From Isoalcanivorax pacificus W11-5 (GTDB taxonomy: Bacteria; Pseudomonadota; Gammaproteobacteria; Pseudomonadales; Alcanivoracaceae): a DNA stretch of 64,000 nucleotides. Both the position numbers and the translations under genes were made by a program. Of the stretch, positions 47,425 to 62,988 are shown piece after piece (within the stretch, counting starts at the first letter, position 1; the number at the start of each line of letters is the position of its first letter). The DNA lies in assembly GCF_000299335.2 (NCBI RefSeq), contig NZ_CP004387.1:1426001-1490000 (forward strand), written 5' to 3'. The notes beneath the pieces are model-generated. The model was not told the DNA's origin. It saw only the letters and a program-made list of their open reading frames with translations, and did not search any database.

Positions 47425-48621
47425 TCAGATCACTCCCTTGTCGCGCAGGGCGCGGATGCGGGCGTCGTCGTAGCCCAGGTCGCGGAGAATGTGCTGGTTG
47501 TGCTCGCCCAGACCCGGCACGGGGTCCATGCGTGGTGTCCAGGCATTGCTGGTGCCGGGCGGCAACAGCGCGGGAATGTCGCCGGCGGGGCTGCCGATGG
47601 TGGTCCAGCGCTGGCGTTCGCGCAGTTGCGGGTGCGCCCAGACGCCGTGCATGTCGTTGACGTGGGCATTGGCGATCTGTGCGTCGTCCAGACGGGCGAT
47701 CACCTGCGCTGCCGTCAGCCCGGAAAATGTCTCGTCGATGAGCGCCCGCAAGGCCTCCCGGTTGGCGACGCGCTTTGAATTGCTGCTGAAACGGTCATCG
47801 GTGGTCAGCGCCGCCTGTTGCAGTACTTTTTCGCAGAACAGTGCCCATTCGCGTTCGTTCTGCAAGCCGAGCATGACGGTCTGGCCGTCGCCGGTGCCGA
47901 ACGGGCCGTAGGGATAGATGGTGGCGTGCGCGGCGCCGGTTCGCGGCGGCGGTGAGGCGTTTTCAAAGGCGTAATAGAGCGGGTAGTTCATCCACTCCAC
48001 CAGGCTTTCCAGCATTGATACATCAATGGCGGAGCCTTTGCCGGTCTTGCCGCGCAGCAGCAGGGCGCTGAGGATGCTGGTGTAGGCGTACATGCCGGCG
48101 GCGATGTCGGCAATCGAGTTGCCGGCCTTGGCCATATCGTCCTGGGTGCCGGTGACCGACAGGAAACCGGCCTCGCTCTGGATCAGCAGGTCGTAGGCTT
48201 TCTTGTCCTGATAGGAACCACCCACGCCATAGCCGGAAATATCGCACACGATCAGTTGCGGGAAGCGTTCGTGCAGGGCATCAAAGGAGAGCCCCATCCG
48301 CGCGGCCGCGCCGGGCGCCAGGTTCTGCACCAGCACGTCGGCGTCGGCCAGCAACTGGTCGAGAATGACGGTGGCGTCTCCCTGTTTCAGGTCCAGCGTC
48401 AGGCTTTCTTTAGAGCGGTTGGTCCAGACGAAATGTGACGCCAGGCCGTTGACGCGCTCGTCATAGTTGCGTGCGAAGTCACCCACGCCGGGGCGCTCGA
48501 CCTTGATCACCCGGGCGCCGAGATCGGCCAGCTGACGGGTGCAGAAGGGCGCCGCGATGGCGTGCTCCATGCTGATGACGGTGATGCCGTCCAGTGGTCT
48601 TGGCGCTGTGGCTTGCGACAT
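47425..48621 (-). CDS. CaiB/BaiF CoA-transferase, probable itaconate CoA-transferase
   Basis: A 398-residue class III CoA-transferase (GITVISMEHAIAAPFCTRQLADLGARVIKVERPGVGDFAR start; ISGYGVGGSYQDKKAYDLLIQSEAG, which holds the catalytic aspartate region). The family moves CoA from a donor such as succinyl-CoA to a carboxylate. Its position between a MmgE/PrpD gene and a CitE-like lyase matches Ict of P. aeruginosa (PA0882 type), 402 residues. The substrate is inferred from the cluster, not from active-site residues. Confidence 0.88.
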   Translation of the reverse strand: MSQATAPRPLDGITVISMEHAIAAPFCTRQLADLGARVIKVERPGVGDFARNYDERVNGLASHFVWTNRSKESLTLDLKQGDATVILDQLLADADVLVQNLAPGAAARMGLSFDALHERFPQLIVCDISGYGVGGSYQDKKAYDLLIQSEAGFLSVTGTQDDMAKAGNSIADIAAGMYAYTSILSALLLRGKTGKGSAIDVSMLESLVEWMNYPLYYAFENASPPPRTGAAHATIYPYGPFGTGDGQTVMLGLQNEREWALFCEKVLQQAALTTDDRFSSNSKRVANREALRALIDETFSGLTAAQVIARLDDAQIANAHVNDMHGVWAHPQLRERQRWTTIGSPAGDIPALLPPGTSNAWTPRMDPVPGLGEHNQHILRDLGYDDARIRALRDKGVI

Positions 48622-48642: not shown

Positions 48643-49992
48643 TCAGAACAGAGTGCGCAGGTCGGCCTGCGTGTGCAACGACCAGACGGCGTTGATCCAG
48701 GCATCAACCTGCTGTGCATCACCGGCGTCGGAAAACGCCACCAGCCGGCGGAACTTGTCTTCCAGTTCCGGACGCGTGAGCGTGTTGCCCGGATCGCCTT
48801 TTGGCTCGTCGGTGGCGCCGTGCAGGGTGCGGCCATCTTTTGTCGTCACGGTGACGCGGCCAAGCCAGCGTTGCGGATAGGCGTTGTCCACTTCCGGCTC
48901 CAGCACCATGCTGACGCGCTCGCGGAAGGCGGATACGCGCGGATCAGTCAGCGCGTGGTCGCGGAATTCCACCAGCGAGGCGCTGCCGTAGACGGCGATC
49001 AGACCCAGCACGGCGCCCATGGAAAATTTCGCCTGGTGAATGCTTTGCGGCACGTCCACGCGGCCGAGTACATCAATGGCGCCCTGGTGCACGCGGGCGG
49101 TGACGGTCTCGATGTCATCGGCAGTGAGATGTTCGCGCTGCATCAGGTCCAGCAGCGCGTCCGCTGCCGGGTGGGTATGGCGGCAGGAAGCGTGGAACTT
49201 GAACGAGGTTTCCGTCAGCGCCCAGCGCGTGCCCAGGCCATCGTTGAGCCATTTTGCATCGGCGTCGCTGGACATGCCGGCGGCCAGCCCCTGCGGGCCT
49301 TCGAGAATATTCTGCGCACCGGTCAGGCCGCTTTCGGTCAGATAGGCCGCGAGCAGGCCATCGGCGGCCGCCTTGGCGGTGTGCAGTTGTTTTGAGTCTG
49401 CCGCATCACGCAGGAATTCCCACAGGCCGGCGGCCTGGGTGCCGGCGCTGCCGAGCAGGTGCGTAAAACCGCTGGCGTTGAACTGCATCAGTTTGCCAAC
49501 GGCCACGGCGGCGGCCAGGGTGCCGACCGTCGCGGTGGTGTGGAAAATGCGGTAGTGCGAGCGGCCCAGGAATTCACCGATGCGGATGCCGGCTTCATAG
49601 CCAGCCACCGACGCCAGGATCAGCTCCTGGCCGCTGCTGCCGAGATCCTGTGCGGCGGCCAGCGCCGCCGGAAACACGACCGTGGCCGGGTGCAGGACCG
49701 AGCTGTTGTGCAGGTCATCCTGTTCCACCACGTGCGAGGCAGCGCCATTCACCAGCGCAGCAAAATACGGCGTCGTAAAGCTGCCGTGGTTGATGCGCTT
49801 GCTGCGGCCGTCCGCCGGCCCCATGCGCGTGGCATAGCGTTCGAACAGCGGGATCGGATGCTCGTGCCGGCCGGCCAGCACCGAGGCCAGCCAGTCGAGG
49901 AACAGGTCTTCAGTGCGGGCGATCACAGCGTCCGGCAGGTCGCTGTATTGCAGCCGGGCGAGAAACGCGGTCAGGTCCTGGGTGGCGGTCAT
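48643..49992 (-). CDS. MmgE/PrpD family protein
   Basis: A 449-residue member of the MmgE/PrpD family, which includes 2-methylcitrate dehydratase and cis-aconitate decarboxylase (the itaconate-making enzyme of fungi and macrophages). Visible family segments are INHGSFTTPYFAALVNGAASHVVEQDD, ASVAGYEAGIRIGEFLG and LNDGLGTRWALTETSFKFHASCRHTHPAADALLDL. ATG 49992 has GAGGACGAG upstream. A homologue occurs in the same place of the itaconate cluster in P. aeruginosa (PA0881 type), where its reaction is not settled. Confidence 0.87.
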   Translation of the reverse strand: MTATQDLTAFLARLQYSDLPDAVIARTEDLFLDWLASVLAGRHEHPIPLFERYATRMGPADGRSKRINHGSFTTPYFAALVNGAASHVVEQDDLHNSSVLHPATVVFPAALAAAQDLGSSGQELILASVAGYEAGIRIGEFLGRSHYRIFHTTATVGTLAAAVAVGKLMQFNASGFTHLLGSAGTQAAGLWEFLRDAADSKQLHTAKAAADGLLAAYLTESGLTGAQNILEGPQGLAAGMSSDADAKWLNDGLGTRWALTETSFKFHASCRHTHPAADALLDLMQREHLTADDIETVTARVHQGAIDVLGRVDVPQSIHQAKFSMGAVLGLIAVYGSASLVEFRDHALTDPRVSAFRERVSMVLEPEVDNAYPQRWLGRVTVTTKDGRTLHGATDEPKGDPGNTLTRPELEDKFRRLVAFSDAGDAQQVDAWINAVWSLHTQADLRTLF

Positions 49993-50002: not shown

Positions 50003-51169
50003 TCAGAACGAACGCGGCAGGCCGAGCAGATGCTCGGACACATACGACAGGATCAGGTTGGTGGAGATGGGGGCCACCTGATACAGCCGCGTTTCACGGA
50101 ACTTGCGCTCGACATCGTATTCGCAGGCAAAACCGAAACCGCCGTGGGTCTGCAGGCACACGTTGGCCGCTTCCCAGGAGGCTTTGGCGGCCAGGTACTT
50201 GGCCATGTTCGCTTCTGCGCCCGCGTTGCGGCCCGCATCGTATTCGGCGCAGGCGCGCCAGCGCATCAGGTCGGCGGCTTCCACTTCGATATGCGCTTCG
50301 GCAATCGGGAACTGTACGCCCTGGTTCTGGCCGATCGGGCGACCGAACACTTCGCGCTCGCGGGCGTAGCGGCTGGCCTTGTCGATAAACCAGCGGCCGT
50401 CGCCGATGCACTCGGCGGCGATCAGGGTGCGCTCGGCATTCAGACCGGAGAGGATGTAGCGGAAGCCCTGGCCTTCTTCGCCGATCAGGCTGTCCGCCGG
50501 GATTTCCAGGTTGTCGAAGAACAGCTCGTTGGTGACGTGGTGCACCATGTTCTCGATCGGCTGCACGGTCATGCCGTTGCCGATGGCCTCGTGCAGGTCG
50601 ACCAGGAAAATCGACATGCCTTCGGTTTTTTTCTTTACCTCAGCCAGCGGGGTGGTGCGTGCCAGCAGGATCATCAGGTCGGAATTCTGGATGCGCGAGA
50701 TCCACACTTTCTGGCCATTGATGACGTACTTGTCACCTTTCTTCACCGCCATGGTCTTGATCTTGGTGGTGTCGGTGCCGGTGGTCGGTTCGGTCACGCC
50801 CATGGATTGCAGGCGCAGTTCACCGCTGGCGAGTTTCGGCAGGAATTTTTGCTTCTGTTCTGCCGAACCGTGCTTGAGCAGCGTGAACATGTTGTACATC
50901 TGGCCGTGAATGGTGCCGGAGTTGCCGCCACACCGGTTCACTTCTTCGAGGATCACCGACGCTTCCGCCAGGCCCAGGCCGGAACCGCCGAATTCTTCCG
51001 GGATCATCGCCGCCAGCCAGCCGGCCTGGGTCATGGCGGAGACGAAATCCACCGGGAACGCGTGCTGCTGGTCGATATCGCGCCAGTAGGCATCGCTGAA
51101 GTTGGCACACAGGCCGCGCACACCTTCGCGGATGCTGTCGAGCGCTTCTTGATCGTGGAACAGGGACAT
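50003..51169 (-). CDS. Acyl-CoA dehydrogenase
   Basis: A 388-residue flavoprotein of the acyl-CoA dehydrogenase family. The substrate/FAD segments MGVTEPTTGTDTTKI, KVWISRIQNSDLM and LQTHGGFGFACEYDVERKFRETRL are typical. It reduces a CoA-bound acyl chain at alpha-beta with electron transfer flavoprotein as acceptor. It follows the hydratase gene in the operon (19 bases) with GGAGG 7 bases before ATG 51169. A gene of this type sits at the same place in the P. aeruginosa itaconate cluster (PA0879 type). Confidence 0.9.
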   Translation of the reverse strand: MSLFHDQEALDSIREGVRGLCANFSDAYWRDIDQQHAFPVDFVSAMTQAGWLAAMIPEEFGGSGLGLAEASVILEEVNRCGGNSGTIHGQMYNMFTLLKHGSAEQKQKFLPKLASGELRLQSMGVTEPTTGTDTTKIKTMAVKKGDKYVINGQKVWISRIQNSDLMILLARTTPLAEVKKKTEGMSIFLVDLHEAIGNGMTVQPIENMVHHVTNELFFDNLEIPADSLIGEEGQGFRYILSGLNAERTLIAAECIGDGRWFIDKASRYAREREVFGRPIGQNQGVQFPIAEAHIEVEAADLMRWRACAEYDAGRNAGAEANMAKYLAAKASWEAANVCLQTHGGFGFACEYDVERKFRETRLYQVAPISTNLILSYVSEHLLGLPRSF

Positions 51170-51188
51170 CGGGTCTTCCTCCGCAAAC

Positions 51189-52016
51189 TTATTCAGTAAA
51201 ACGCAGCACGCCGTGCTGGGCCGGGCCGTGCTCGTTATCGATAAAGATCTCCGCTTCGCCGGGCGCTGTGATGCGGCCCCCGGCACGGAAGGGTGCCGGG
51301 GCGATCATCGGGCGCAGGCCACGGAAGCGCATGTGAGTCGGGGTAGTGTTCGGGTGGGCGCGGTTGAACGCCTGCATCATCAGCGTGGCCAGCAGCGGGC
51401 CGTGTACCACCAGGCCGGGGTAGCCTTCCTCGCCGGTGGTGTAGGGCTGGTCGTAATGAATGCGGTGACCGTTGAAGGTCACTGCGGAATAGCGGAACAG
51501 CAGCACCGGATCGGGGGTGATCTCGTCGTACCAGTCGCAGGCCGGAAGCGGCGTCGGTTCACCGGCACGGGGCGCGGACGGGGCACGGTAGACGATGTCC
51601 TGTTCCTCGCGCAGGCACAGCGTGCCGGCCTGGGTGTATTCGTGCATCAGTGTGACAAACAGCAGCGAGCCGGTGCGCCCATGCTTTTCTTCAATCGCCT
51701 GGATGCGGGTGCGGCGCCGTGCGCGCTGGCCGATGCGCAGCGGCGCCAGGAAATCCACCCGGCTGCCGGCCCACATGCGATGACGGTCGTCTGCCGGCGG
51801 CAGGAAGCCGCCCCGCGCCGGATGGCCATCGATGCCGATCTCGCTGGCGGGCGCCGGGGTCTGGAAGAACGCCCAGTGCCACAGCCAGGGCAAGGGCTCG
51901 CCACCGGCCGGCGCGGGCCGGTCAAAGGTCGCGGCCAGCCGCGTGACCAGGGCGATATCCAGGTTGTCGTCGCAGTGTTCCTCGCGGCCAAGCCATTGAT
52001 CCAGTGGGGCAGACAT
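51189..52016 (-). CDS. MaoC-like hydratase, probable itaconyl-CoA hydratase
   Basis: A 275-residue double hot-dog hydratase of the mesaconyl-C4-CoA/itaconyl-CoA hydratase type. The N-terminal half resembles a FAS1-like dehydratase domain (HPARGGFLPPADDRHRMWAG). The C-terminal half has FNGHRIHYDQPYT and GYPGLVVHGPLLATLMM, the catalytic hot-dog pattern. It adds water to an enoyl-CoA. As first gene of the minus-strand operon, in the same relation to an acyl-CoA dehydrogenase as Ich of P. aeruginosa, itaconyl-CoA to citramalyl-CoA is the likely reaction. ATG 52016 was chosen; the frame is open upstream into the promoter. Its promoter carries two GTATAC palindromes. Confidence 0.88.
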   Translation of the reverse strand: MSAPLDQWLGREEHCDDNLDIALVTRLAATFDRPAPAGGEPLPWLWHWAFFQTPAPASEIGIDGHPARGGFLPPADDRHRMWAGSRVDFLAPLRIGQRARRRTRIQAIEEKHGRTGSLLFVTLMHEYTQAGTLCLREEQDIVYRAPSAPRAGEPTPLPACDWYDEITPDPVLLFRYSAVTFNGHRIHYDQPYTTGEEGYPGLVVHGPLLATLMMQAFNRAHPNTTPTHMRFRGLRPMIAPAPFRAGGRITAPGEAEIFIDNEHGPAQHGVLRFTE

Positions 52017-52110: not shown

Positions 52111-53274
52111 TCAGACCACTGCCCGCGTGCTGCTCAGATCGTCGATGTCCGCGTCGCTGAGGCCGGCTTCCTTCAGGACCTCGCGGGTATGCTCGCCCGG
52201 CAGCGGCGCATGCCGGCGCAGGCTGAACCGGAACTGGCTCATGCGCACCGGGCAGGCCGCCTGGGTGACCGGGCCGTAGGTCGGGTGCTCGGTCTCCAGC
52301 ACCATGTCACGGGCGCGGAACTGTTCGTGTTGCAGGGCTTCTTCCAGTTTCAGCACCGGCGTCACGCAGCAGTCGTTGTCCTTGAAACGCTCGGCCCAGT
52401 ATTCCTGCTCCTGGCTGGCGAACAGCCCGGTCAGCTCGGCGTGCACGGCGCGGTTCACGGCCTTGTCGTGGCTGCGGTGTTTGTCCTTCAGGTCGGGCCG
52501 TTCGATCAGGTCACAGAAACGGTCCCAGAACTTGCGCTCCAGCGCGCCAACCGCCATAAAGCGGCCGTCGCGGGTGCGGTACAGGCCATAGCAGGGCAGG
52601 CCGCCAGACAGGGTATCGCCCCCCGCCGGATAGGTGTGGCCATGGGTGCCGAGCGTGGCCAGCGGCATGACCGCGTGGGCCAGCACGCCATCGCTGATGG
52701 ACATGTCCACGTAGCGGCCACGGCCACTGCGCTGGGCGTCGAACAGGGCCGCCTGGATGCCCATCAGCGCGGTCAGTGTGCCGCCCATGAGATCGGCCAG
52801 CGGCACATTCGACAGCGCCGGAGACTGGGCATCGAAGCCGATCTGGTCGGCCACGCCGGTGAAGCCGCAATAGTTCAGGTCGTGGCCGGGGGCGTCGCGG
52901 TAGGGGCCGGTCTGGCCATAGCCGCTGATGCTGCAGTAGACCAGTTTCGGGTTCAGTTTCGACAGCACGTCGTAGCTGATGCCAAGACGGTCGGCGACGC
53001 CGGGGCGAAAGCCTTCGATGACAATATCGGCGCTGCGTACCAGGCGCAGGAACACCTCCAGGCCGCTTTGCTGTTTCAGGTCGATGCGGATGCCGCGCTT
53101 GTTGCGGTTGATGATCGCCCGGAGAATCGGTGGCACGTAATCGCCGGCGCCGGTGTCCTCGATCTTGATCACGTCGGCACCGAGGTCGGCCAGGTGCAGG
53201 CTGCACACCGGGCCGGGCAGCAGGCGGGTCAGATCCAGCACGCGCACACCGCGCAGCGGTGAAGTGTCATTCAT
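52111..53274 (-). CDS. CaiB/BaiF CoA-transferase (second)
   Basis: A 387-residue class III CoA-transferase distinct from the one in the hydratase operon. The start GVRVLDLTRLLPGPVCSLHLADLGADVIKIEDTGAGDYVPP and the ISGYGQTGPYRDAPGHDLNYCGFTG segment are typical of the racemase/CaiB subgroup. It might be an alpha-methylacyl-CoA racemase-type or CoA-transferase enzyme; sequence alone does not decide. It is monocistronic, with 94 bases to the hydratase gene. Its promoter carries a CGCCAATG-N15-GCCATTG motif shared with the thiolase operon. ATG 53274 was chosen; GGAG lies about 11 bases upstream. Confidence 0.85.
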   Translation of the reverse strand: MNDTSPLRGVRVLDLTRLLPGPVCSLHLADLGADVIKIEDTGAGDYVPPILRAIINRNKRGIRIDLKQQSGLEVFLRLVRSADIVIEGFRPGVADRLGISYDVLSKLNPKLVYCSISGYGQTGPYRDAPGHDLNYCGFTGVADQIGFDAQSPALSNVPLADLMGGTLTALMGIQAALFDAQRSGRGRYVDMSISDGVLAHAVMPLATLGTHGHTYPAGGDTLSGGLPCYGLYRTRDGRFMAVGALERKFWDRFCDLIERPDLKDKHRSHDKAVNRAVHAELTGLFASQEQEYWAERFKDNDCCVTPVLKLEEALQHEQFRARDMVLETEHPTYGPVTQAACPVRMSQFRFSLRRHAPLPGEHTREVLKEAGLSDADIDDLSSTRAVV

Positions 53275-53746
53275 GGGTACTACTCTCCGGATAACATGGG
53301 TTGCCGGTCTGGGATGCCCGGTTTTTTGCGATCCACGGAGTGTAGAAGCGGCGTTTTTCAGCGCCAATGGCAAAATCTTCGCGAATCATTGGCGTGATGT
53401 ATCAGCAACGCGATGGCATATTCTGTCATCCGATTTTGATGGATATGGCCATTGTTGCCCGCCGCGCACCGGGACAAGCTTGGGCCGGTCTGGACACCCT
53501 TCAGACGTTGACAAGATGGCACGCCGGGGCAGAACCCGCCCGGACGTGTCACCGTTTCGTGACCGGTCAGAGCGGGCAGGCGCCATCCCCGTTCTTCACG
53601 GATACCGTCCGTGGCTGGTCACGGAGATAAAAAAAACAGGAGACTCGCTCTATGCGTTGTGTCATCAGGTCAGTGGCCAGTGTCGTTTTCTTTTCACTGC
53701 ACGAAACTGCCCCTTCCGCCCCGCACGGTCGCCGAGGTGGCCTGCC
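53275..53746. other. Divergent control region between CaiB-2 and tctB
   Basis: This 472-base gap has no credible gene. It holds the bipartite motif at 53365-53394, a half-site GCCATTGTTG at 53448-53457 (repeated in the thiolase promoter), and the ribosome site GAGGTGG (53734-53740) for tctB. The AT content is higher at 53330-53450. It should contain promoters for both directions, but I cannot place them with certainty. Confidence 0.5.
53365..53394 (-). promoter_or_regulatory. Bipartite motif CGCCAATG-N15-GCCATTG (site 1)
   Basis: On the minus strand CGCCAATG (53394 to 53387) is followed after exactly 15 bases by GCCATTG (53371 to 53365). The same two words with the same spacing occur upstream of the thiolase gene at 56994-57022 on the plus strand. 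This copy is also an 8-bp perfect inverted repeat, CGCCAATG/CATTGGCG. Candidate AraC-type operator. Confidence 0.6.
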
Positions 53747-54202
53747 ATGCTGAATACCATGAAAAAACTCAATCTTGTTGAACTCAGCGGTGCGCTGTGC
53801 GTGCTGCTGCTGGGCGTGGCGGTGATGGTCATTGCCCGCGATTATCCCATGGGCTCCCTGAGCCGGATGGGCACCGGGTACTTCCCGATGATTCTGGGCG
53901 CGCTGCTGCTGGTCATCGGCGTGGTACTGGTGTTCGAGGTGGCGCGGAGCACCGAACAGGTGGTGGTGCGGATCCCGTTCCGGCCGATCCTGATGATTGG
54001 CCTGGGGATCATCACCTTTGCCTTCCTGGTCGAGCGGGCCGGGCTGGTGCCGGCAACCTGTGCACTGGTGGTGCTCGGCAGCCTGGCAGAAAGTCCGTTT
54101 CGTCCGGTCACTGTGCTGTGCATTGCTGCGGCCATGTCTGTGATCAGCGTGTTGCTGTTCGTCAAGGCCCTCGGCCTGCCGCTGTCTGCGTTCGGAGGGT
54201 AA
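53747..54202 (+). CDS. tctB: Tripartite tricarboxylate transporter, small subunit TctB
   Basis: A 151-residue membrane protein with four hydrophobic helices (about 12-30, 40-62, 82-100 and 108-140). It is the small subunit of a TTT transporter, which with TctA moves di/tricarboxylates bound by the periplasmic TctC. ATG 53747 follows GAGGTGG by 6 bases; MKKLNLVEL at 53759 is the alternative. The stop is 4 bases before the tctA start. Confidence 0.86.
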   Translation: MLNTMKKLNLVELSGALCVLLLGVAVMVIARDYPMGSLSRMGTGYFPMILGALLLVIGVVLVFEVARSTEQVVVRIPFRPILMIGLGIITFAFLVERAGLVPATCALVVLGSLAESPFRPVTVLCIAAAMSVISVLLFVKALGLPLSAFGG

Positions 54203-54206
54203 GCCG

Positions 54207-55739
54207 GTGGAAATGTTGTCCAATTTCGGCCTTGGTCTGGCCACGGCGGTGACGCCGGAAGCGTTGCTGTTCTGTTTTATCGGTGTCACCGTCGGCACCT
54301 TTGTCGGTGTGCTGCCGGGGGTGGGCGCCATGGCGGCCATTTCGCTGGCGCTGCCGATGACCTACCACCTTGATCCGACCTATGCCCTGATCATGCTGGC
54401 CGGTATTTTCTACGGTTCCCAGTACGGCGGTTCCACTGCTTCCATTCTGCTCAACCTGCCCGGCAGCATCACCAATGCGGTGACCTGCCTGGACGGCTAC
54501 CCGATGGCGCAGAACGGCAAGGCCGGTGTGGCGCTGTTCGTCACCGCCATCGCGTCCTTTATCGGCAGTTCGTTTGCGATTGTCATCGTGATGGGCTTTG
54601 CGCCGATGATTGCGGAAGCGGCGCTGAATTTCAGTTCCTATGAATATTTCGCGGTCATGCTGATGGGGTTGATTGCAGCCTCGACGCTGTCCAGCGGTTC
54701 GCCCATGAAAGGGCTGGCGGCAGTGGTGCTGGGTGTCACCATCGGCATTGCGGGCACGGACGTGACCAGTGGCCAGTATCGCTTCACCTTTGGCCTGCAG
54801 GGCCTGAGTGACGGCGTCAATCTGGTGGCCATCGCCATGGGCCTGTTCGGTATTTCGGAGATCGTCACCAACATCGGCCGGGGTCCCGGCGAGCGTGGCG
54901 TCATCGGCAAGGTGACGCTGCGTTCCATGTTCCCGAGCCGCGAGGAGTGGCGTCGCTTCTGGGGGCCGGCGGGGCGCGGTTCAGTGGTGGGCTCCGCCAT
55001 CGGTGCCCTGCCGGGCATCGGGCCGGTGTTGTCCGCGTTCATGGCCTACCTGCTGGAAAAGAAAGTCTCCCGCGAGCCGTCGAAATTCGGCAAGGGCGCC
55101 ATCGAAGGCATTACCGCACCGGAGGCCGCCAACAACGCGGCAGTACAGGCCGGCTTCATTCCCACCCTGAGCCTGGGTATTCCCGGTGATGCGGTGATGG
55201 CGCTGATGCTGGGTGCCATGATGATCCACGGTATCGTGCCCGGCCCGCTGTTCATGACCGAATACCCGGAAATGTTCTGGGGCCTGATCATGAGTTTCTG
55301 GATCGGCAACATCCTGCTGCTGGTGCTGAACATTCCGCTCAACGGCCTGTGGGTGCGGATGCTGAAAATTCCCTACCATGTGCTGTACCCCGCCATCCTG
55401 GTATTCATCTGCATCGGTGTCTACAGCGCCCGCAACAGCGTGTTTGACATCTATGTCGCGCTGGCCTTCGGCCTGCTCGGCTACCTGATGAACATGATGC
55501 GCTATCCGACCGCGCCGTTGCTGCTGGGTTTTGTGCTGGGCCCGCTGCTGGAGGAACACTTCCGCCGCAGCATGCTGCTTTCGCGCGGCGAATTCGGTGC
55601 CTTCATGGACCGTCCGTTGAGTGCGATCTTCCTGATCGTCACTGCAGGGCTGATGGCCTTTGCCGGTTTCACGCTGCTGCGGCAGATGCGTGCCCGCAAG
55701 CGCCAGCGGGCGCTGGCGGCCAGTGGTGGCAGCGTCTGA
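54207..55739 (+). CDS. tctA: Tripartite tricarboxylate transporter, permease TctA
   Basis: A 510-residue permease with about 11-12 transmembrane helices. Family sequences are GTFVGVLPGVGAMAAISLALP near residue 30, GIFYGSQYGGSTASILLNLPG and the second repeat ALPGIGPVLSAFMAYLLEKK, EAANNAAVQAGFIPTLSLGIPG. I chose GTG 54207 with GGAGGG 7 bases upstream; ATG 54213 is farther from the ribosome site. It works with TctB and a TctC-type binding protein, one of which is encoded 7 kb downstream. Confidence 0.95.
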   Translation: MEMLSNFGLGLATAVTPEALLFCFIGVTVGTFVGVLPGVGAMAAISLALPMTYHLDPTYALIMLAGIFYGSQYGGSTASILLNLPGSITNAVTCLDGYPMAQNGKAGVALFVTAIASFIGSSFAIVIVMGFAPMIAEAALNFSSYEYFAVMLMGLIAASTLSSGSPMKGLAAVVLGVTIGIAGTDVTSGQYRFTFGLQGLSDGVNLVAIAMGLFGISEIVTNIGRGPGERGVIGKVTLRSMFPSREEWRRFWGPAGRGSVVGSAIGALPGIGPVLSAFMAYLLEKKVSREPSKFGKGAIEGITAPEAANNAAVQAGFIPTLSLGIPGDAVMALMLGAMMIHGIVPGPLFMTEYPEMFWGLIMSFWIGNILLLVLNIPLNGLWVRMLKIPYHVLYPAILVFICIGVYSARNSVFDIYVALAFGLLGYLMNMMRYPTAPLLLGFVLGPLLEEHFRRSMLLSRGEFGAFMDRPLSAIFLIVTAGLMAFAGFTLLRQMRARKRQRALAASGGSV

Positions 55740-55753
55740 TGGCAGAATGAAAT

Positions 55754-55777
55754 TGCCCGCTGCTGCCGGAGCGGGCA
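55754..55777 (+). terminator. Hairpin after tctA
   Basis: TGCCCGCT (55754-55761) and AGCGGGCA (55770-55777) pair around an 8-base loop, 14 bases after the tctA stop, followed by TTATCAG. Weak T content. Confidence 0.5.
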
Positions 55778-55800
55778 TTATCAGATTATCGGTTCACCCG

Positions 55801-55829
55801 CACCGGGGCCGGCATTGCCGGCCCCGGTG
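55801..55829. terminator. Strong GC hairpin before the AraC-type gene
   Basis: CACCGGGGCCGGC (55801-55813) and GCCGGCCCCGGTG (55817-55829) are perfect 13-bp arms with loop ATT. It lies about 40 bases before the probable araC-type start. A second terminator for tctA or a leader structure are both possible. Confidence 0.5.
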
Positions 55830-55869
55830 ATATGCCAGGGTGATGTCGTTTCAGCTATCGGGTCAGGCC

Positions 55870-56916
55870 ATGTCAGTGGAACTGGAAAACACCACCACAC
55901 ATCACACCATCCCGATCTATCAGGTCAACGAAATCCTGTTGGGTGCGCGCCAGCAGGGCGTGGATATTCGCGACATCCTGTTGCGCGCGGATATCTCGCC
56001 GGCGCTGCTGGAATCACCGTTGTCCCGGGTGTCGCAACGTCAGTATGCGCGGCTGATCCGCGCCATGCGCTTTCACATGCGTGATGAATTCTTTGGCCTG
56101 TGCAGCCAGCCGGTGCGCATCGGCGCCTTTTCGCACATGTGCAAGAACCTGGTGCAGTGCGGCAGCCTCGGTGAAGCAATCCGCGAGGGTTTCTCGTTCT
56201 ATCACATGATGATCGATGATTTTGTCGCGCGGCTGTCGGTACAGAAGGGCGTGGCACGGGTGCGTATCTGTCACCGTGGCCCGCCGGAAACGATGGGCAA
56301 CTATGCCGAGCGCGTGTTCATCTTTTTTGCCATGGGCATGGCCTCCTGGCTGGTGGCACGGCGGCTGCCGCTGCTGAACGTGTATTACCTGCCTTCAGAG
56401 CGCGACCGCGATGCCTATGTGAAAATGCTGTTCCAGGCGCCGGTCCTGTACGAAGAAGGCGTGCTGGGTTTTGATTTCGAAGCGCGCTGGCTGGAACTGC
56501 CGGTGGTGCAGAACGCGATGAGCGTGCGGGATTTTCTGCATCAGGCGCCGGCCAGCCTGCTGGTGAAATACCGTGACCAGACCAGCCTCACGGAACGGAT
56601 TCGCCGTTTGTTGCGCCGTCACCTGAGCGGCGAAATGCCGACGCTGGAAGAGGTCGGGTCGATCTTCGGCATCACCCCGCAAACCCTGCGCCGTCGCCTG
56701 CGCAACGAAGGGCAGACCTATCAATCGCTGAAAGACAGCCTGCGCTGTGATGCGGCGATTGAACTGTTGAGCCAGCCGGAACTTTCGCTGGTGGACATCG
56801 CCGCCATGGTGGGTTTTTCCGAACCCAGTACCTTCCACCGTGCCTTCAAGAAATGGACCGGGCTGCCGCCCGGCGAGTACCGCAGCCGCCGCCTGCGCGA
56901 AGAAGAATTTTTCTGA
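55870..56916 (+). CDS. AraC-family regulator with arabinose-binding-like N domain
   Basis: A 348-residue regulator. The N-terminal ligand-binding domain (about 20-210) resembles the Arabinose_bd group (NEILLGARQQGVDIRDILLRA, GLCSQPVRIGAFSHMCKNLV), and a C-terminal double HTH (about 245-340: LEEVGSIFGITPQTLRRRLR, LSLVDIAAMVGFSEPSTFHRAFKKWTG) follows. I chose ATG 55870; GTG 55840 and ATG 55843 are in frame upstream. It sits between the transporter and the thiolase operon and is the likely controller of the shared CGCCAATG-N15-GCCATTG motif. Confidence 0.88.
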   Translation: MSVELENTTTHHTIPIYQVNEILLGARQQGVDIRDILLRADISPALLESPLSRVSQRQYARLIRAMRFHMRDEFFGLCSQPVRIGAFSHMCKNLVQCGSLGEAIREGFSFYHMMIDDFVARLSVQKGVARVRICHRGPPETMGNYAERVFIFFAMGMASWLVARRLPLLNVYYLPSERDRDAYVKMLFQAPVLYEEGVLGFDFEARWLELPVVQNAMSVRDFLHQAPASLLVKYRDQTSLTERIRRLLRRHLSGEMPTLEEVGSIFGITPQTLRRRLRNEGQTYQSLKDSLRCDAAIELLSQPELSLVDIAAMVGFSEPSTFHRAFKKWTGLPPGEYRSRRLREEEFF

Positions 56917-56993
56917 CCACCACGCCGGCCGAACCGGGCCGGCGACCAAACCTCTCACCGCCTGCCGCCATGCGTTGTTCTTCTGGCAGCTTT

Positions 56994-57022
56994 CGCCAAT
57001 GCATTTGACCGAATGCGCCATT
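56994..57022 (+). promoter_or_regulatory. Bipartite motif CGCCAATG-N15-GCCATTG (site 2)
   Basis: CGCCAATG (56994-57001) and GCCATTG (57017-57023, core ending at 57022-57023) with 15 intervening bases lie about 130 bases before the thiolase start. GCCATTGTTG is identical to bases 53448-53457. The repeat distance of about two helical turns suits an AraC-type dimer. Confidence 0.6.
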
Positions 57023-57148
57023 GTTGACGATAGCCCCCGGCGCCACTCTATACCCATGATCGAACAATAACGGACCTGACAAGACAGCTTCCGGTTTCTG
57101 ATCCGGTTCAGGTCAGCACAGTGCCGCACAGGTACGGAGGAGAGTCCC

Positions 57149-58339
57149 TTGAGTCGTAAAGTCTACGTTGCCGGTGTCGGCATGATCCCGTTCACCAAGC
57201 CCGGTGCCAGCGATCCTTATCACATCATGGGTGAGCAGGCGGCGCGCATTGCCCTGAAAGACGCCGGCCTGGATTACGACAAGGTGCAACAGGCCTATGT
57301 CGGTTACGTCTACGGTGATTCCACCAGCGGCCAGGCCGCCGTGTACGGTGCGGGCCTGACCGGCATCCCGGTTTTCAACCTGAACAACAACTGCTCGTCC
57401 GGTTCGTCTGCGTTGTTCCTGGCCCGCCAGGCAGTGGAAAGCGGTCAGGTCGAATGCGCGCTGGCACTGGGCTTCGAGCAGATGAATCCGGGCGCGCTGA
57501 AAGGCGCCTATGATGATCGTCCGTCGCCAGTGGCGCGGTTCCAGGAGGCGATGACTCAATTGCAGGGCTACGACAGCCAGGCACCGCGTGCCGCGCAGTT
57601 TTTTGGTGGCGCAGGCCGCGAACACATGAAGCGTTTCGGCACCAAGGCGGAAACCTTTGGCCGCATTTCTGTTAAGGCGCGCCAGCATGCTGCCAACAAC
57701 CCTTACGCTGTTTTCCGCCAGCAGCTTTCGCTGGAAGAAATCATGAGCGCGCCGATGATCTTTGATCCGCTGACGCGCTTCCAGTGCTGCCCGCCAACCT
57801 GCGGCGCGGCTGCCGCCATTGTCTGCTCAGAAGCGTTCGCCAAGCGCCATGGTCTGAACATGGACGTAGTGATTGCAGCGCAGTCGATGACCACGGATTT
57901 TGAATCGACGTTCAACAGCGACGATATGCGTCGCGTGGTCGGCTATGACATGACGGCCGCTGCCGCCAAAGAAGTGTACGAGAAAGCCGGCGTTGGCCCG
58001 GAAGAGGTGAAAGTCGTCGAGCTGCACGACTGCTTTACCGCCAACGAACTGATCACCTACGAAGGCCTGGGCCTGACCCCGGAGGGCACCGCCGAGAAAT
58101 TCATTCTCGACGGCGACAATACCTACGGTGGTCGCGTGGTCACCAACCCGTCCGGCGGCCTGTTGTCGAAAGGGCACCCGCTGGGCGCCACGGGCCTGGC
58201 GCAATGTACCGAGCTGGTCTGGCAACTGCGTGGCACCGCTGACAAACGCCAGGTGGAAGGCGCCCGCGTGGCGCTGCAACACAACCTGGGTCTCGGCGGC
58301 GCCTGCGTGGTGACGCTGTATCAGTCCAGCAAAGGCTGA
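57149..58339 (+). CDS. Thiolase / SCP-X-type acetyl-CoA C-acyltransferase
   Basis: A 396-residue thiolase-fold protein (often named lipid-transfer protein or acetyl-CoA acetyltransferase). The nucleophilic cysteine is in NNNCSSGSSALFLARQAV near residue 88. VELHDCFTANELI and NPSGGLLSKGHPLGATG (histidine near residue 345) complete the thiolase centre. It cleaves 3-ketoacyl-CoA with CoA. The start is TTG 57149 with GGAGGA 7-8 bases upstream, and no better ATG exists. It opens the plus-strand operon. Confidence 0.9.
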   Translation: MSRKVYVAGVGMIPFTKPGASDPYHIMGEQAARIALKDAGLDYDKVQQAYVGYVYGDSTSGQAAVYGAGLTGIPVFNLNNNCSSGSSALFLARQAVESGQVECALALGFEQMNPGALKGAYDDRPSPVARFQEAMTQLQGYDSQAPRAAQFFGGAGREHMKRFGTKAETFGRISVKARQHAANNPYAVFRQQLSLEEIMSAPMIFDPLTRFQCCPPTCGAAAAIVCSEAFAKRHGLNMDVVIAAQSMTTDFESTFNSDDMRRVVGYDMTAAAAKEVYEKAGVGPEEVKVVELHDCFTANELITYEGLGLTPEGTAEKFILDGDNTYGGRVVTNPSGGLLSKGHPLGATGLAQCTELVWQLRGTADKRQVEGARVALQHNLGLGGACVVTLYQSSKG

Positions 58340-58352: not shown

Positions 58353-58796
58353 GTGATAGATACCTCTTTCATTGGCGCGGCACTGCCCGCCTTCAGTGCC
58401 GATGTGGAAGCCGGCCGGCTGCGTTTCTTCGCCAAGGCGATTGGCCAGGCCGATCCGGTCTATCTGGATGAACAGGCGGCCCGTGCCGCCGGCTTCGACG
58501 GCATCCCGGTGCCGCCGACGTTCCTGTTCTGCCTGGAAATGGAATCACCGAACCCGGCTGCGCTGCGGGAAATGCTCAATATCGACATCGGCCGTGTCCT
58601 GCATGGCGAACAGCAGTTCGTCTATCACGCGCCGGCCTACGTCGGCGACCGGCTGACATTTACCCCGACAGTGGCGGATATCTACGCCAAGAAGGGCGGG
58701 GCGCTGGAATTCGTGGTGCGTGATACGCGCGTCACCAACCGGCGCGATGAACTGGTGGCGGAGCTGCGCTGCGTCACGGTGGTACGCAACGGCTGA
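58353..58796 (+). CDS. MaoC-like hot-dog subunit (N-terminal type)
   Basis: A 147-residue hot-dog protein (IGAALPAFSADVEAGRLRFFAKAIGQADPVYLDEQAARAAG then PVPPTFLFCLEME). It lacks the D-x4-H catalytic motif of hydratases and resembles the HadA/HadC-like non-catalytic partner that pairs with a catalytic MaoC subunit such as the next gene. The start is GTG 58353, with AGGAG upstream. Substrate unknown. Confidence 0.85.
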   Translation: MIDTSFIGAALPAFSADVEAGRLRFFAKAIGQADPVYLDEQAARAAGFDGIPVPPTFLFCLEMESPNPAALREMLNIDIGRVLHGEQQFVYHAPAYVGDRLTFTPTVADIYAKKGGALEFVVRDTRVTNRRDELVAELRCVTVVRNG

Positions 58797-58813
58797 GGCG
58801 GCGGAGAAGCGAC

Positions 58814-59236
58814 ATGACAGCAATCAACTACGACAGCCTGAACGTCGGCGATGCACTGCCGGTGCTGGCCACCCGGCCGATCAGCCGGCTCGACCTGGCG
58901 CTGTACTGCGGCGCCTCCGGCGACCACAACCCGATCCATGTGGATATCGACTTTGCCAAAGGCGCCGGCATGCCCGATGTGTTTGCCCACGGCATGCTGT
59001 CGATGGCCTTTCTGGGCCGTTTGCTCACCGACTGGGTGCCACAGCATCAGTTGCGCGAATACAGCGTGCGCTTTGTCGCCATCACCCATGTGGGTGATGC
59101 AATTACCTGCACGGGCGAAGTGGTGGAGAAATTCGAACACAACGGCGAGCGCCGCCTGAAGCTGGTGCTGGCCACGAAGAACCAGAACGACGAAATCAAG
59201 CTGAAGGGTGAAGCCGTGATCGGCTTTCCGGGCTGA
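58814..59236 (+). CDS. MaoC-like enoyl-CoA hydratase (catalytic subunit)
   Basis: A 140-residue hot-dog hydratase with the catalytic GASGDHNPIHVDIDFA motif (aspartate and histidine near residues 37 and 42) and MPDVFAHGMLSM. It probably forms a heterodimer with the preceding subunit and hydrates a trans-enoyl-CoA to the (R)-3-hydroxy form, in the style of HadAB or PhaJ. The gap to the upstream stop is 17 bases. Confidence 0.9.
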   Translation: MTAINYDSLNVGDALPVLATRPISRLDLALYCGASGDHNPIHVDIDFAKGAGMPDVFAHGMLSMAFLGRLLTDWVPQHQLREYSVRFVAITHVGDAITCTGEVVEKFEHNGERRLKLVLATKNQNDEIKLKGEAVIGFPG

Positions 59237-59251
59237 CGGGAGAGAAATTCA

Positions 59252-60073
59252 ATGAGCAAGTTGCAAGGTAAAGTGGCGATCGTATCCGGTTCCGGCCGTG
59301 GCATTGGCCGCGAGATCGCACTGAAGCTGGCCAGCGAAGGCGCGGCCGTGGTGGTGAACGACCTGGACGCCGCCCCGGCGGAAGAGACCGTGGCGGATAT
59401 CATCCGCGCCGGCGGCAAGGCTGTTGCCTGTGTCGGCAGTGTCACGGACGCCGATTTCGCCGACCGTTTCGTCAATACGGCCGTGAACGAGCTCGGTGGC
59501 CTGGACATCATCGTCAACAATGCCGGTTTTACCTGGGACAACGTGATCCAGAAAATGACCGACGAACAGTGGCAGGCGATCATCGATGTGCACCTGACTG
59601 CACCGTTTCGCATTCTGCGTGCCGCCTCTGGTTACATCCGCGAGCAGGCCAAGAAAGAAGCCGGGGAAGGCCGCGAAGTGTTCCGTAAAGTGGTGAACAT
59701 TTCCTCGATTTCCGGGCTGATGGGCAATGCCGGCCAGAGCAACTATTCCGCCGCCAAGGCCGGCATCGTCGGCCTGACCAGGACGCTGGCGAAAGAGTGG
59801 GGCCGCTACAAAGTGAACGTGAACAGCGTGGCCTACGCGCTGATCAGCACCCGCCTGACCCAGGCGACGGAAGAAGAAAAGACCGTGGATATTGAAGGCC
59901 GGCAGATCCGCGTTGGCGTCAAGGCCGCCAACCTGAAGGCCGCCGAAGCCTCGATCCCGCTGGGCCGGGCCGGCACGCCGGAAGAAGCCGCCGGCGCCGT
60001 ATACCTGTTCTGCATTCCTGAATCCAACTATGTGAGCGGCCAGTCACTGATCTGTGGCGGCGGCCGTCCCTGA
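59252..60073 (+). CDS. SDR-family 3-hydroxyacyl-CoA dehydrogenase-like protein
   Basis: A 273-residue short-chain dehydrogenase. The cofactor motif VSGSGRGIGRE (residues 11-21), NNAGFTWD and the S-Y-K triad (NISSISG, then SNYSAAKAGIVGL) are intact. A C-terminal extension before the last strand (TVDIEGRQIRVGVKAANLK) is unusual for FabG-like enzymes. It may oxidise the (R)-hydroxyacyl-CoA made by the preceding MaoC pair. GGGAGAG precedes the ATG. Confidence 0.88.
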   Translation: MSKLQGKVAIVSGSGRGIGREIALKLASEGAAVVVNDLDAAPAEETVADIIRAGGKAVACVGSVTDADFADRFVNTAVNELGGLDIIVNNAGFTWDNVIQKMTDEQWQAIIDVHLTAPFRILRAASGYIREQAKKEAGEGREVFRKVVNISSISGLMGNAGQSNYSAAKAGIVGLTRTLAKEWGRYKVNVNSVAYALISTRLTQATEEEKTVDIEGRQIRVGVKAANLKAAEASIPLGRAGTPEEAAGAVYLFCIPESNYVSGQSLICGGGRP

Positions 60074-60081
60074 GGCGCGAG

Positions 60082-61242
60082 ATGAGCGATATCAAGCACG
60101 CCTGGATGGACGAAGACCTGCTGATTTTCCGGGATGCCACCCGCAAGGTCTTCGAAAATGAATTTGCGCCCCTTGAGGAGCGCTGGGTCAGTCAGAAACG
60201 GACTGACCGCGAAGTCTGGAACATGCTCGGGCAGTACGGGCTGCTGTGCGCCAGTATTCCACAAGAATACGGTGGCGCCGGCGGCACGTTCGCTCACGAG
60301 GTGGTGATCTGCACCGAGCAGTCCAGAGCCCTGGTCAGCAGCTTCAGCCTGAATGTGCACAGCGCCATTGTGGCGCACTACATTCTCAACCACGGCACCG
60401 AGGCGCAGAGGCAGCAGTGGCTGCCGAAGATGGCCTCCGGCGAGATGGTGGCGGCGATCGCCATGAGCGAGCCGGGCACCGGGTCGGACCTGCAAGCGGT
60501 CCGTACCACCGCCCGCCGCGACGGCGATGAATATGTGATCAACGGCTCCAAGACCTTTATCACCAACGGCTACCATGCCGACCTGGTGTGCGTGGTGGCG
60601 AAGACCGATACCCAGGCGCCGGGCGCCCGGGGTATCTCGCTGGTGATGGTGGAAACGAAGGACCTGCCGGGTTTCCGCCGTGGCAAGTTGCTGGAGAAGA
60701 TCGGCCAGCGCGGCCAGGATACTGCCGAGCTGTTCTTTGATGACGTGCGGGTGCCGGTGAGCAACCTGCTTGGCGACGAGGAAGGCAAGGGCTTTCCGCA
60801 GCTGATGAAAGAGCTGCCGCGCGAGCGCCTGCTGATCGCCGTCGGTGCGGTGGCCGTGATGGAGCGTGCCGTCGCAGAGACGGTGGCCTATGTGCAGGCG
60901 CGCAAGGTGTTCGGCAAACGTCTGATGGACATGCAGAATACCCGCTTCACACTGGCCGAGTGCAAGACCCGCGCCACGGCGGCCCGGGTGTTTGTTGACG
61001 ACTGCATCGGCAAGGCCCTGCGTGGCGAGCTGGATGTGGCCACGGCGGCGATGGCCAAGTGGTGGGTCACCGAGACCAACTGCCAGGTGATCGACGAATG
61101 CCTGCAACTGCACGGGGGCTACGGCTACATGCTGGAATACCCGATTGCCCGGATGTACACCGATGCCCGCGTCGGCCGCATCTACGGGGGGTCCAATGAA
61201 ATCATGAAAGAGCTTGTGGCCCGTTCGCTGGACCAGGCCTGA
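60082..61242 (+). CDS. Acyl-CoA dehydrogenase
   Basis: A 386-residue flavoenzyme of the acyl-CoA dehydrogenase family (AMSEPGTGSDLQAVRTTA, GSKTFITNGYHADLV, LQLHGGYGYMLEYPIARMYTDARVGRIYGGSNEIMKEL). The glutamate in GGSNEIM lies in the usual catalytic base region of medium/long-chain types. It starts the oxidation round in the plus-strand operon. The gap to the SDR stop is 8 bases. It is distinct from the acyl-CoA dehydrogenase in the hydratase operon. Confidence 0.92.
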   Translation: MSDIKHAWMDEDLLIFRDATRKVFENEFAPLEERWVSQKRTDREVWNMLGQYGLLCASIPQEYGGAGGTFAHEVVICTEQSRALVSSFSLNVHSAIVAHYILNHGTEAQRQQWLPKMASGEMVAAIAMSEPGTGSDLQAVRTTARRDGDEYVINGSKTFITNGYHADLVCVVAKTDTQAPGARGISLVMVETKDLPGFRRGKLLEKIGQRGQDTAELFFDDVRVPVSNLLGDEEGKGFPQLMKELPRERLLIAVGAVAVMERAVAETVAYVQARKVFGKRLMDMQNTRFTLAECKTRATAARVFVDDCIGKALRGELDVATAAMAKWWVTETNCQVIDECLQLHGGYGYMLEYPIARMYTDARVGRIYGGSNEIMKELVARSLDQA

Positions 61243-61282: not shown

Positions 61283-61308
61283 GATAAGTAGAAGAAGCAG
61301 GAGTGGAT

Positions 61309-62988
61309 ATGGGCAACGCACACTACCGTTTCTGGCCGAAAGGGCAGCCGAAGACGCTGCAGGTGCCGGCGACGACACTGTGTCGTAACCTCGAGGACGC
61401 CGCGGCGCGTTACCCGGCACGGCCGGCGGTCATCTATTACGACGGTGTCCTGACCTATGGTCGCTTTGAACAGGAAGTCGGTTATCTGGCCGGCTACCTG
61501 CAACAGCATTGCGGTGTCGCCCGGGGCGACCGCGTGGTGCTGTTCAGCCAGAACTGCCCGCAATTTTTCATTGCCTACTATGCTGTGCTGAAACTGGGCG
61601 CGGCGGTGGTGCCGGTGAATGCCATGAGCACGGCACCGGAGCTGCGCTACTTTGTAGAAGACAGCGGCGCCCGCGTGGCGCTGCTGGGCCAGGAAATGTA
61701 CGAGCGCGCCCGCCCGCTGGTGGACGAGGGGCTGCTGGGGCAACTGATCATCCACACCTATTCCGATTACATCGGCGACGACTGTGAATTTGCCATTCCT
61801 GACTGGGTGATGATGCCGCGTCGCGACATCAACGACCCGGTGGTGACGCACTGGCAGGACATGCTGGCCGCACGTTGCCCGGCATCGCCGGCGCCGTTTG
61901 GTGCAGAGCAGATGAGCATCCTGCCGTACACCTCCGGCACCACCGGCCAGCCAAAAGGCTGTGTCCACAATCACCGCACCCTGATGGCAGCCATCTACGG
62001 CTCGGCCATCTGGCGCGGGCTGCACGCGGAAACCGTGTTCCTGTCCGTGGCGCCACTGTTCCATCTGCTCGGGATGCAGAACGGCATGAACCTGCCGATC
62101 CTGCTCGGCGCCACCGTGGTCATGCTGCCGCGCTGGGATGAAGCCGCAGCGGCGCGGCTGATCGAGAAATACCGGGTCAGTTTCTGGTCGGCGACGCCGG
62201 CCATGCTGGTGGATTTCTTCTCCAATCCGGCGCAGGAAGGCTACGACCTGTCCAGCCTGGCGCTGCTGGCAGGCGGCGGCGCCGCGATGCCGGAAGCGAT
62301 CTCGCTGATGCTGCGTGACAAATACGGCATTTACTTCAATGAAGCCTACGGCCTGACCGAGACGGCGGCATTCCTGCACGGCAACCCGGTGCATCGGGGC
62401 AAGCCGCAGTGCCTGGGTGTGCCCGCCTTCGGTGTGGATTCCCGGGTGGTGGACCCGGACACCCTGGAAGAACTGCCCGACGGTGAAGTGGGCGAACTGA
62501 TCACCAGTGGCGACCAGGTGATGGTCGGCTACTGGAACAACGAGCAGGCCAACCGTGAAGCGTTTATCGAACGCGACGGCAGGCGTTTCTTCCGCACCGG
62601 GGACCTCGCCTCGGTGGACGAGGACGGCTATTTCTTCATGCGTGATCGCCTCAAGCGGATGATCAGCGTGTCCGGCTACAAGGTCTGGCCGGCGGAAGTG
62701 GAAAACGCCATGTACGACAACCCCGACATCCAGGAAGCCTGCATCGTCAGTGTGCCGGACCGGCGCAGCGGCGAAGCGGTGAAAGCCATCGTGGTGCTCA
62801 AGCCCGGCCGGCGCGGCAGCGTCACCGAGCAGGACATCATCGGCTGGGCGCGGGAACGGATGGCCGTGTACAAGGCGCCGCGTCAGGTGGAGTTCCGCAG
62901 CAGTCTGCCGCGCTCCGCCACCGGCAAGATTCTCTGGCGCGAGCTGCAGGAAGAACAGGCCCGCGCCGACCACAAGACCGGCAGTTGA
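61309..62988 (+). CDS. AMP-forming acyl-CoA synthetase (second)
   Basis: A 559-residue ANL ligase (YTSGTTGQPKGCVHNH near residue 207; YGLTETAA near 345; TGDLASVDEDGYF near 430; SATGKILWREL at the C-terminus). It makes an acyl-CoA for the beta-oxidation-like steps of this operon. ATG 61309 has CAGGAG 5 bases upstream; the in-frame GTG 61303 overlaps the ribosome site and is unlikely. An open reading frame of nearly 3 kb on the opposite strand spans this gene and its neighbour but is a compositional shadow. Confidence 0.92.
   Translation: MGNAHYRFWPKGQPKTLQVPATTLCRNLEDAAARYPARPAVIYYDGVLTYGRFEQEVGYLAGYLQQHCGVARGDRVVLFSQNCPQFFIAYYAVLKLGAAVVPVNAMSTAPELRYFVEDSGARVALLGQEMYERARPLVDEGLLGQLIIHTYSDYIGDDCEFAIPDWVMMPRRDINDPVVTHWQDMLAARCPASPAPFGAEQMSILPYTSGTTGQPKGCVHNHRTLMAAIYGSAIWRGLHAETVFLSVAPLFHLLGMQNGMNLPILLGATVVMLPRWDEAAAARLIEKYRVSFWSATPAMLVDFFSNPAQEGYDLSSLALLAGGGAAMPEAISLMLRDKYGIYFNEAYGLTETAAFLHGNPVHRGKPQCLGVPAFGVDSRVVDPDTLEELPDGEVGELITSGDQVMVGYWNNEQANREAFIERDGRRFFRTGDLASVDEDGYFFMRDRLKRMISVSGYKVWPAEVENAMYDNPDIQEACIVSVPDRRSGEAVKAIVVLKPGRRGSVTEQDIIGWARERMAVYKAPRQVEFRSSLPRSATGKILWRELQEEQARADHKTGS

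Follow-up and report, generated by a model that had tools for sequence, protein, structure and literature searches.

At the araI1-I2 sites of Escherichia coli, an AraC dimer occupies a direct repeat with a period of about two helical turns, and the proximal half lies over the −35 element of the promoter that it activates. We take GliR (PA3027) and VqsM of Pseudomonas aeruginosa to be members of the PF12625 family, and the AraC-type regulator considered here shares this N-terminal domain family with both proteins and with CdpR. For CdpR, the domain is described in the text of PMC4847859. GliR uses two sites, of which one is upstream and the other overlaps the −35 element, and the VqsM motif is quoted as GGATSNNNTYGGCCA (both in the text of PMC8151288). 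The DNA analyzed here is a stretch of 64,000 nucleotides (hereafter the window) from contig NZ_CP004387.1 of Isoalcanivorax pacificus W11-5. It carries two exact copies of the bipartite motif CGCCAATG-N15-GCCATTG, with the gene for the AraC-type regulator between them. Both copies are members of a conserved operator, approximately TTnnGCCAATSnnTTTG-n9-GYCATTG.

Compared with E. coli AraC, the N-terminal domain (PF12625), the operator sequence, and the regulon all differ, and the repeat at this locus has a period of 22–23 bp. When the VqsM motif is reversed, it has a GGCCRA core in common with the half-site TSGCCAATSnnTTTG (motif as quoted in PMC8151288). Unlike the targets of GliR, VqsM, and CdpR, those proposed here are joined in a single linked regulon of catabolism and transport. 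Part of it is like the P. aeruginosa ict-ich-ccl operon (as described in PMC12599236), in that Ich-like and Ccl-like enzymes and CaiB-type proteins are encoded in one run, a likeness that is one of similarity alone. Whereas that operon is paired with the TRAP transporter IctPQM, a TctABC-type transporter, an AraC-type regulator, and an SCP2-thiolase run are found here; the word AraC is absent from the main text of the paper on the operon (PMC12599236). The citE product scores 135.8 bits against the Ccl/RipC equivalog model NF038242, below the cut-off of 375, and therefore the gene run is likened to an ict-ich-ccl operon rather than classed as one.

In the reading that we propose, the PF12625 AraC-type regulator would control a conserved catabolic regulon by class II activation, and the motif would serve as the operator of that regulon. 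This reading is given a probability of roughly 80%, with binding, activation, and the inducer all inferred. A regulator dimer would bind the direct repeat GCCAAT...GCCATTG, whose halves are 22–23 bp apart. The proximal repeat overlaps the predicted −35 element and a poor −10 element follows 17 bp on; because of this overlap, the bound regulator is viewed as a class II activator, which would recruit RNA polymerase when an inducer is present. Four units would be switched on jointly: caiB2 with the itaconyl-CoA-type genes, tctBA, the run thl-hydratases-SDR-acad2-lig2-tctC1, and tctC2 (operon extents are predicted). Uptake and breakdown of a single carboxylic acid would then rise together. The substrate may be a carboxylate that feeds an itaconyl/citramalyl-CoA route, and it might be methyl-branched or dicarboxylic.

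The original prediction held that the two words recur with an identical 15-base gap on either side of the regulator gene, and this arrangement was recovered exactly (operators A and B and the regulator in Table 1). An exact-match scan gives no third copy in the window or in the 4,168,427-base genome, so that the genome scan suggested as a check returned only the two copies in the cluster and none of the random exact matches that might have been feared. Looser scans behave differently. With up to two mismatches, the genome has 32 matches versus 12 for a backwards control, and with up to three the window has 6 versus 5.16 expected. The loose word pair therefore does not discriminate, whereas its exact form and its context do. 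A form with a gap of 16 matches eleven places in the genome at one mismatch (L152–L162). The best matrix scores among off-cluster places at one to three mismatches (L003–L008, L140–L148) are 18.6 (L147) and 15.9 (L007), and the open reading frames (ORFs) around two of these places, L004 and L140, contain nothing of the pathway as judged by eye. A stricter 20-position pattern fits operator B, not operator A, and matches this genome alone among 369 sampled genomes of the class. A family-wide scan at one mismatch was too loose to be used, since 46 of 46 genomes among the matches listed were positive.

To follow the operator in relatives, regulator orthologs were taken from whole genomes and from genome contigs, and neighboring genes were mapped by tblastn. 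The 45 fragments searched comprise 18 from 11 Alcanivoracaceae genomes, which partly overlap (one non-upstream match is counted twice), and 27 loci of other families. Kept out of the main counts were 49 of 80 regulator loci from the genome contigs, mostly from Acinetobacter, and the order-level regulator-like genes L020–L022. The pattern GCCAAT-N16/17-GYCATTG, allowed up to one mismatch, has 62 matches in the 45 fragments, compared with a mean of 2.06 (maximum 12) for up to 100 letter-shuffled patterns. Fifty-one of these matches share the strand of a cluster gene and lie at most 300 bp upstream of it (shuffled mean 0.08, maximum 1), and 2 fall inside cluster genes. At least one upstream site is present in 37 of 42 fragments, which divide into 13 of 15 from Alcanivoracaceae and 24 of 27 from other families, and such sites occur in 9 of the 11 Alcanivoracaceae genomes. 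Conservation of the sites where the cluster is kept had been named as a further check on the motif, and it is observed both in the Alcanivoracaceae and in other families.

The genes that first follow the 51 sites are tctC2 (13), thl (11), caiB2 (10), lig1 (6), acad2 (5), lig2 (3), and tctC1 (3), where each name denotes the best tblastn match and the lig1 matches are merely 29–31% identical. Counterparts of operator A precede caiB2 in A. limicola, in genomes G002 and G004, and at five Achromobacter loci. Counterparts of operator B precede thl in G004, A. limicola, G002, Alloalcanivorax mobilis, and several Burkholderiales. The operator is built as a GCCAWT direct repeat with a period of 22–23 bp. 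Among relatives, the matrix shows poor conservation at the outer C and at base eight (G) of CGCCAATG, and partial conservation of a TTTG block within the 15-base gap. The gap itself is 15 or 16 bases, the longer form being found at tctC2 (Alcanivorax), at caiB2 of A. limicola, and in Noviherbaspirillum.

The spacing was examined at one mismatch in the 27 other-family loci. With the spacing of the window motif, 18 loci have between them 23 sites no more than 500 bp from the regulator, 8 more sites lie elsewhere in the loci, and each of 16 alternative spacings gives 0–2 sites near the regulator. In a clade-to-clade matrix test, 18 of 27 loci (1.7 expected) and 8 of 10 (0.55 expected) had their top match at most 500 bp from the regulator. 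Because the training sites were chosen by their resemblance to the window motif, this test is not relied on and the spacer and shuffle tests are used instead.

Promoter geometry was counted in 37 non-redundant sites with the TTG of GCCATTG set as the start of the −35 element. A −10-like xAxxxT is located exactly 17 bp on in 26 of the 37, whereas the mean at 31 other spacings (8 to 39) is 1.3, counting 9 sites at 18 bp. For promoter B, an alternative register 3 bp on (TTGACG-N17-TCTATA) is possible. A consensus scan finds no consensus sigma-70 promoter between positions 53200 and 57200, and the −10 boxes are poor. With a direct repeat, a proximal half over the −35 element, and a weak −10 element at 17 bp, the predicted promoters appear to have the layout of those served by class II AraC-type activators.

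As judged from its double helix-turn-helix and Arabinose_bd features, the predicted regulator is a member of the AraC/XylS family and of its PF12625 subgroup. The PF12625 domain scores 108.4 bits (E 6e-31, cut-off 27.6) and the PF12833 domain 74.2 bits (E 1e-20, cut-off 33.6). Its nearest chain in the PDB is 5chh (E 7e-15), which we take to be CdpR. The code 5CHH appears once in the text of PMC4847859. The regulator is not GliR, because it scores 150.9 bits against model NF050186, for which the cut-off is 570; nor is it QhpR, as model NF049968 gives 130.3 bits, below its cut-off of 250. Of 36 Alcanivoracaceae genomes, the 11 with the regulator (E ≤ 1e-60) are also the 11 with PrpD (E ≤ 1e-100). 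Three order-level genomes encode regulator-like proteins that are 36–37% identical and have no PrpD match at 1e-100. The recognition helices TPQTLRRRLRDEG and GFSEPSTFHRAFKKWTG are well conserved in 35 regulators, two of which come from loci with weaker sites.

The tie between regulator and operator was also assessed away from regulator loci. As a control, 20 of 23 thiolase relatives unlinked to the regulator were scanned over the gene and 4 kb upstream; 13 are from genomes without a regulator match and 7 are paralogs from genomes with one. Only 1 of the 20 has a site at one mismatch, six more have one at two mismatches, and 13 have none. The one-mismatch site is at locus L187 (G056:C41), at position 1404 on the minus strand; it lies on the strand opposite to the thiolase relative and 2.6 kb from it, in a genome that lacks a regulator match at 1e-60, and is probably due to chance. 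In the I. pacificus genome, a second SCP2-type thiolase (G000:C1:3653973-3655148), 69% identical to thl, has no operator match at two mismatches in the 4 kb upstream.

Scans of 20 of the 27 other-family genomes at up to one mismatch give 21 matches in 16 genomes, versus 0 for the control. Fifteen matches are at regulator loci, and the 6 located elsewhere all precede metabolic or transport-like genes. Two sites in an Ectothiorhodospiraceae metagenome-assembled genome (MAG) are on the regulator contig at distances of 33 and 47 kb, before acad2 (66% identity) and lig2 (55%). In two Cupriavidus species (L205, L206), a site on a contig other than that of the regulator precedes a gene for a TctC-like receptor (∼30%). 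Noviherbaspirillum (L202, L208) has sites on the regulator contig before a FabK/nitronate-monooxygenase-like gene, which is adjoined by a divergent CaiB-like gene; one of the two FabK-like genes was scored and, at 97 bits, falls short of the cut-off of 453.

A site over the −35 element would suit repression too, and the regulator might therefore bind and repress by covering this element until an inducer relieves it. We consider this unlikely, as the poor −10 hexamers and the absence of a consensus sigma-70 promoter between 53200 and 57200 are what activator-dependent promoters would be expected to show, and the second half-site lies upstream of the −35 element in the position of a class II activator. 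The conserved operator might alternatively belong to another regulator encoded elsewhere, with the neighboring AraC gene a bystander. In keeping with this, the sites of some genomes are distant from the regulator gene or stand on a different contig. However, the sites track the regulator gene across families, and 19 of the 20 unlinked thiolase relatives lack a site at one mismatch. Direct-repeat binding is moreover described as a trait of few regulators, mostly of the AraC family (text of PMC9723621), a site over the −35 element is described for the related GliR, and the half-site is similar to the VqsM motif in reverse complement (text of PMC8151288 for both). A separate regulator is thus distinctly improbable. 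If the operator were instead the inverted repeat CCAATG...CATTGG, a dimeric regulator of another family could be responsible, and operator A does fit the pattern on the opposite strand at two mismatches. The dyad needs a G after GCCATTG, but merely 8 of the 37 non-redundant sites have it and this position is unconserved in the matrix. The inverted repeat was rejected on this count, and we judge it to be very unlikely. Finally, the word pair is common at two to three mismatches, as would be expected if its repetition were fortuitous. Chance was rejected by the spacing test, the shuffle control, and the 369-genome scan, and it is disfavored to the point of being negligible by conservation, spacing, position, and promoter geometry, in agreement with the original prediction.

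A number of observations nevertheless weigh against class II activation of these genes by the AraC-type regulator. Binding of the regulator to the sites is something that we infer, and the missing sigma-70 consensus fits activation without proving it. Conservation near the regulator is partly a matter of ascertainment, because the loci were retrieved via the regulator, a concern that the thiolase and whole-genome scans ease in part. Conservation of the recognition helices does not discriminate, since it is nearly as high in L035, L020, L022, and Acinetobacter. Among the Alcanivoracaceae, G008 and G034 have weaker sites alone (matrix scores 19.8–26.2). Of the 27 other-family loci, L070 and L097 have no site at up to one mismatch, and L035 has none at the locus, its two sites lying on the regulator contig at distances of 33 and 47 kb; with the stricter pattern of the whole-genome scan, 4 of the 20 other-family genomes have no operator match. 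The Alcanivorax scores for the site before tctB (12.7–16.4) overlap those of unrelated places. The 49 of 80 Acinetobacter-type loci show no clear motif, and a gap that is shorter by one base is commoner there (21 versus 11 near matches at two mismatches).

In Acinetobacter and relatives (L051–L102), the orthologous regulator gene is mostly divergent from a CaiB-like gene. In an alignment of 42 loci, a different conserved block, approximately ACAATG...AGCCATTTACCTTGAT..TTTCGGCAATTT, stands between the two genes and may be a diverged operator.

Two further sites are associated with transporter genes. A half-site, GCCATTGTTG, had been noted upstream of tctB at position 53448, where it is indeed present; this GCCATTG (53448–53454) closes a degenerate full site on the proximal side. 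Its matrix score alone would be insufficient, because places elsewhere in the genome reach 18.6 and 15.9, and the site is instead marked by its position and its conservation. Counterparts score 14.7 in G004, 12.7 in A. limicola, and 24.6, 26.2, and 28.4 in three Alloalcanivorax genomes, and none was found in G002 (best matrix score 6.2). The tctC2 gene lies at position 71106 in window numbering, ∼7 kb past the end of the window. Its operator, GCCAATGTTTGCTGATACAAACCGCCATTG, has a gap of 16 (G000:C1:1497008-1497037, or 71008–71037 in window numbering), is the sole exact match of its form in the genome, and overlaps a predicted promoter, TTGTGG-N17-CACTAT. This operator is kept in A. limicola, in G004, and upstream of both tctC2-like genes of G002 (one at one mismatch). 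The operator and tctC2 together span G000:C1:1497008-1498089 (71008–72089) and are followed by an acyl-CoA ligase-like ORF (31% to lig1) and, as read by eye, by a thioesterase-like ORF. TctA, TctB, and TctC each score above the Pfam cut-off, and the two TctC matches in the genome, tctC1 and tctC2, are both in the cluster. The membrane subunits and receptors, probably of one transporter, are therefore split over transcription units that bear the same operator.

Table 1. Operators, predicted promoters, and genes of the cluster (window numbering)
Feature	Coordinates	Strand	Remarks
Operator A	53365..53394	-	CGCCAATG-N15-GCCATTG; 5' of caiB2
Operator B	56994..57023	+	CGCCAATG-N15-GCCATTG; 5' of the thiolase (thl) gene run
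Degenerate third operator	core 53425..53454	+	5' of tctB; matrix score 16.4
Predicted promoter A	53339..53367	-	-35 TTGGCG (53367-53362), 17 bp, -10 TACACT (53344-53339)
Predicted promoter B	57021..57049	+	-35 TTGTTG (57021-57026), 17 bp, -10 CACTCT (57044-57049)
AraC-type regulator	55870..56916	+	PF12625 N-terminal domain and HTH_18; ATG 55870, GTG 55840 possible
lig1, acyl-CoA ligase-like	44965..46551	-	
citE, citramalyl-CoA lyase (Ccl/RipC)-like	46583..47422	-	8khl, E 2e-75; NF038242 below cut-off
caiB1, CoA-transferase family III-like	47425..48621	-	
prpD, MmgE/PrpD-type protein	48643..49992	-	
acad1, acyl-CoA dehydrogenase-like	50003..51172	-	
maoC1, itaconyl-CoA hydratase (Ich)-like	51189..52016	-	PDB 8khg, E 9e-109
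caiB2, CoA-transferase family III/alpha-methylacyl-CoA racemase-like	52111..53274	-	PF02515; first gene after operator A
tctB, small membrane subunit, tripartite tricarboxylate transporter	53747..54202	+	PF07331
tctA, large membrane subunit	54207..55739	+	PF01970
thl, SCP2-type thiolase	57149..58339	+	NF006102 (lipid-transfer protein) above cut-off; first gene after operator B
FAS1_DH-type hydratase, MaoC, SDR, and acyl-CoA dehydrogenase genes	58353..61242	+	Follow thl
lig2, acyl-CoA ligase-like	61303..62988	+	NF006181 above cut-off
tctC1, tripartite transporter solute receptor	63030..64000 in window	+	Stop codon 64007, beyond window; follows lig2

The genes in Table 1 give some indication of what the cluster may do. 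The nearest matches to the caiB2 product are chains of alpha-methylacyl-CoA racemase (E 9e-63) and CoA-transferases. Because Ich-like, Ccl-like, and racemase-like proteins are encoded together with an SCP2 thiolase, a Tct transporter, and ligases, breakdown of a methyl-branched or dicarboxylic acid is suggested, and it is plausible, though far from assured, that such an acid is the substrate taken up and degraded. Elsewhere in the window, on the minus strand, the translations reveal a large heme-peroxidase-like ORF adjoining an ORF for a MalT/LuxR-type regulator (38458–41286 and 41335–43959).

The original prediction spoke of an undescribed local regulon. Its regulon part is supported, with the sites conserved along with the cluster, but the word local is not, since the tctC2 site lies outside the window and sites elsewhere are distant or on other contigs. 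No description of the regulon was found in the literature searched, which included few subscription papers. The regulon is well supported, broadly conserved, and of a conventional catabolic type, and it is apparently undescribed. A more speculative extension, which we regard as doubtful, is that the operator and promoter form a portable cassette, a direct repeat joined to the −35 box with a weak −10 element at 17 bp. Such a cassette would have persisted in Alcanivoracaceae, Burkholderiales, Marinobacter, and one MAG each of Rhodospirillaceae and Ectothiorhodospiraceae, even as the genes downstream of it were reshuffled. The same extension would include an undescribed pathway for a methyl-branched acid, mono- or dicarboxylic, such as one derived from isoprenoid hydrocarbons. 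The acid would be imported by the TctABC-type transporter, degraded by a branched beta-oxidation like that of peroxisomes (with CaiB2 as the racemase-like enzyme, hydratase 2, and the SCP2 thiolase), and converted through itaconyl-CoA and citramalyl-CoA to acetyl-CoA and pyruvate.

If a regulon of this kind is present, then a set of acyl-CoA, CoA-transferase, and transport genes whose annotation is loose becomes one testable unit. The operator is specific enough to predict members by sequence, as with tctC2 in this genome and with acad2 and lig2 at least 33 kb from the regulator in the Ectothiorhodospiraceae MAG. It would also provide a defined handle on the inducer, and hence on the substrate, of a pathway present in environmental bacteria, hydrocarbon degraders among them.

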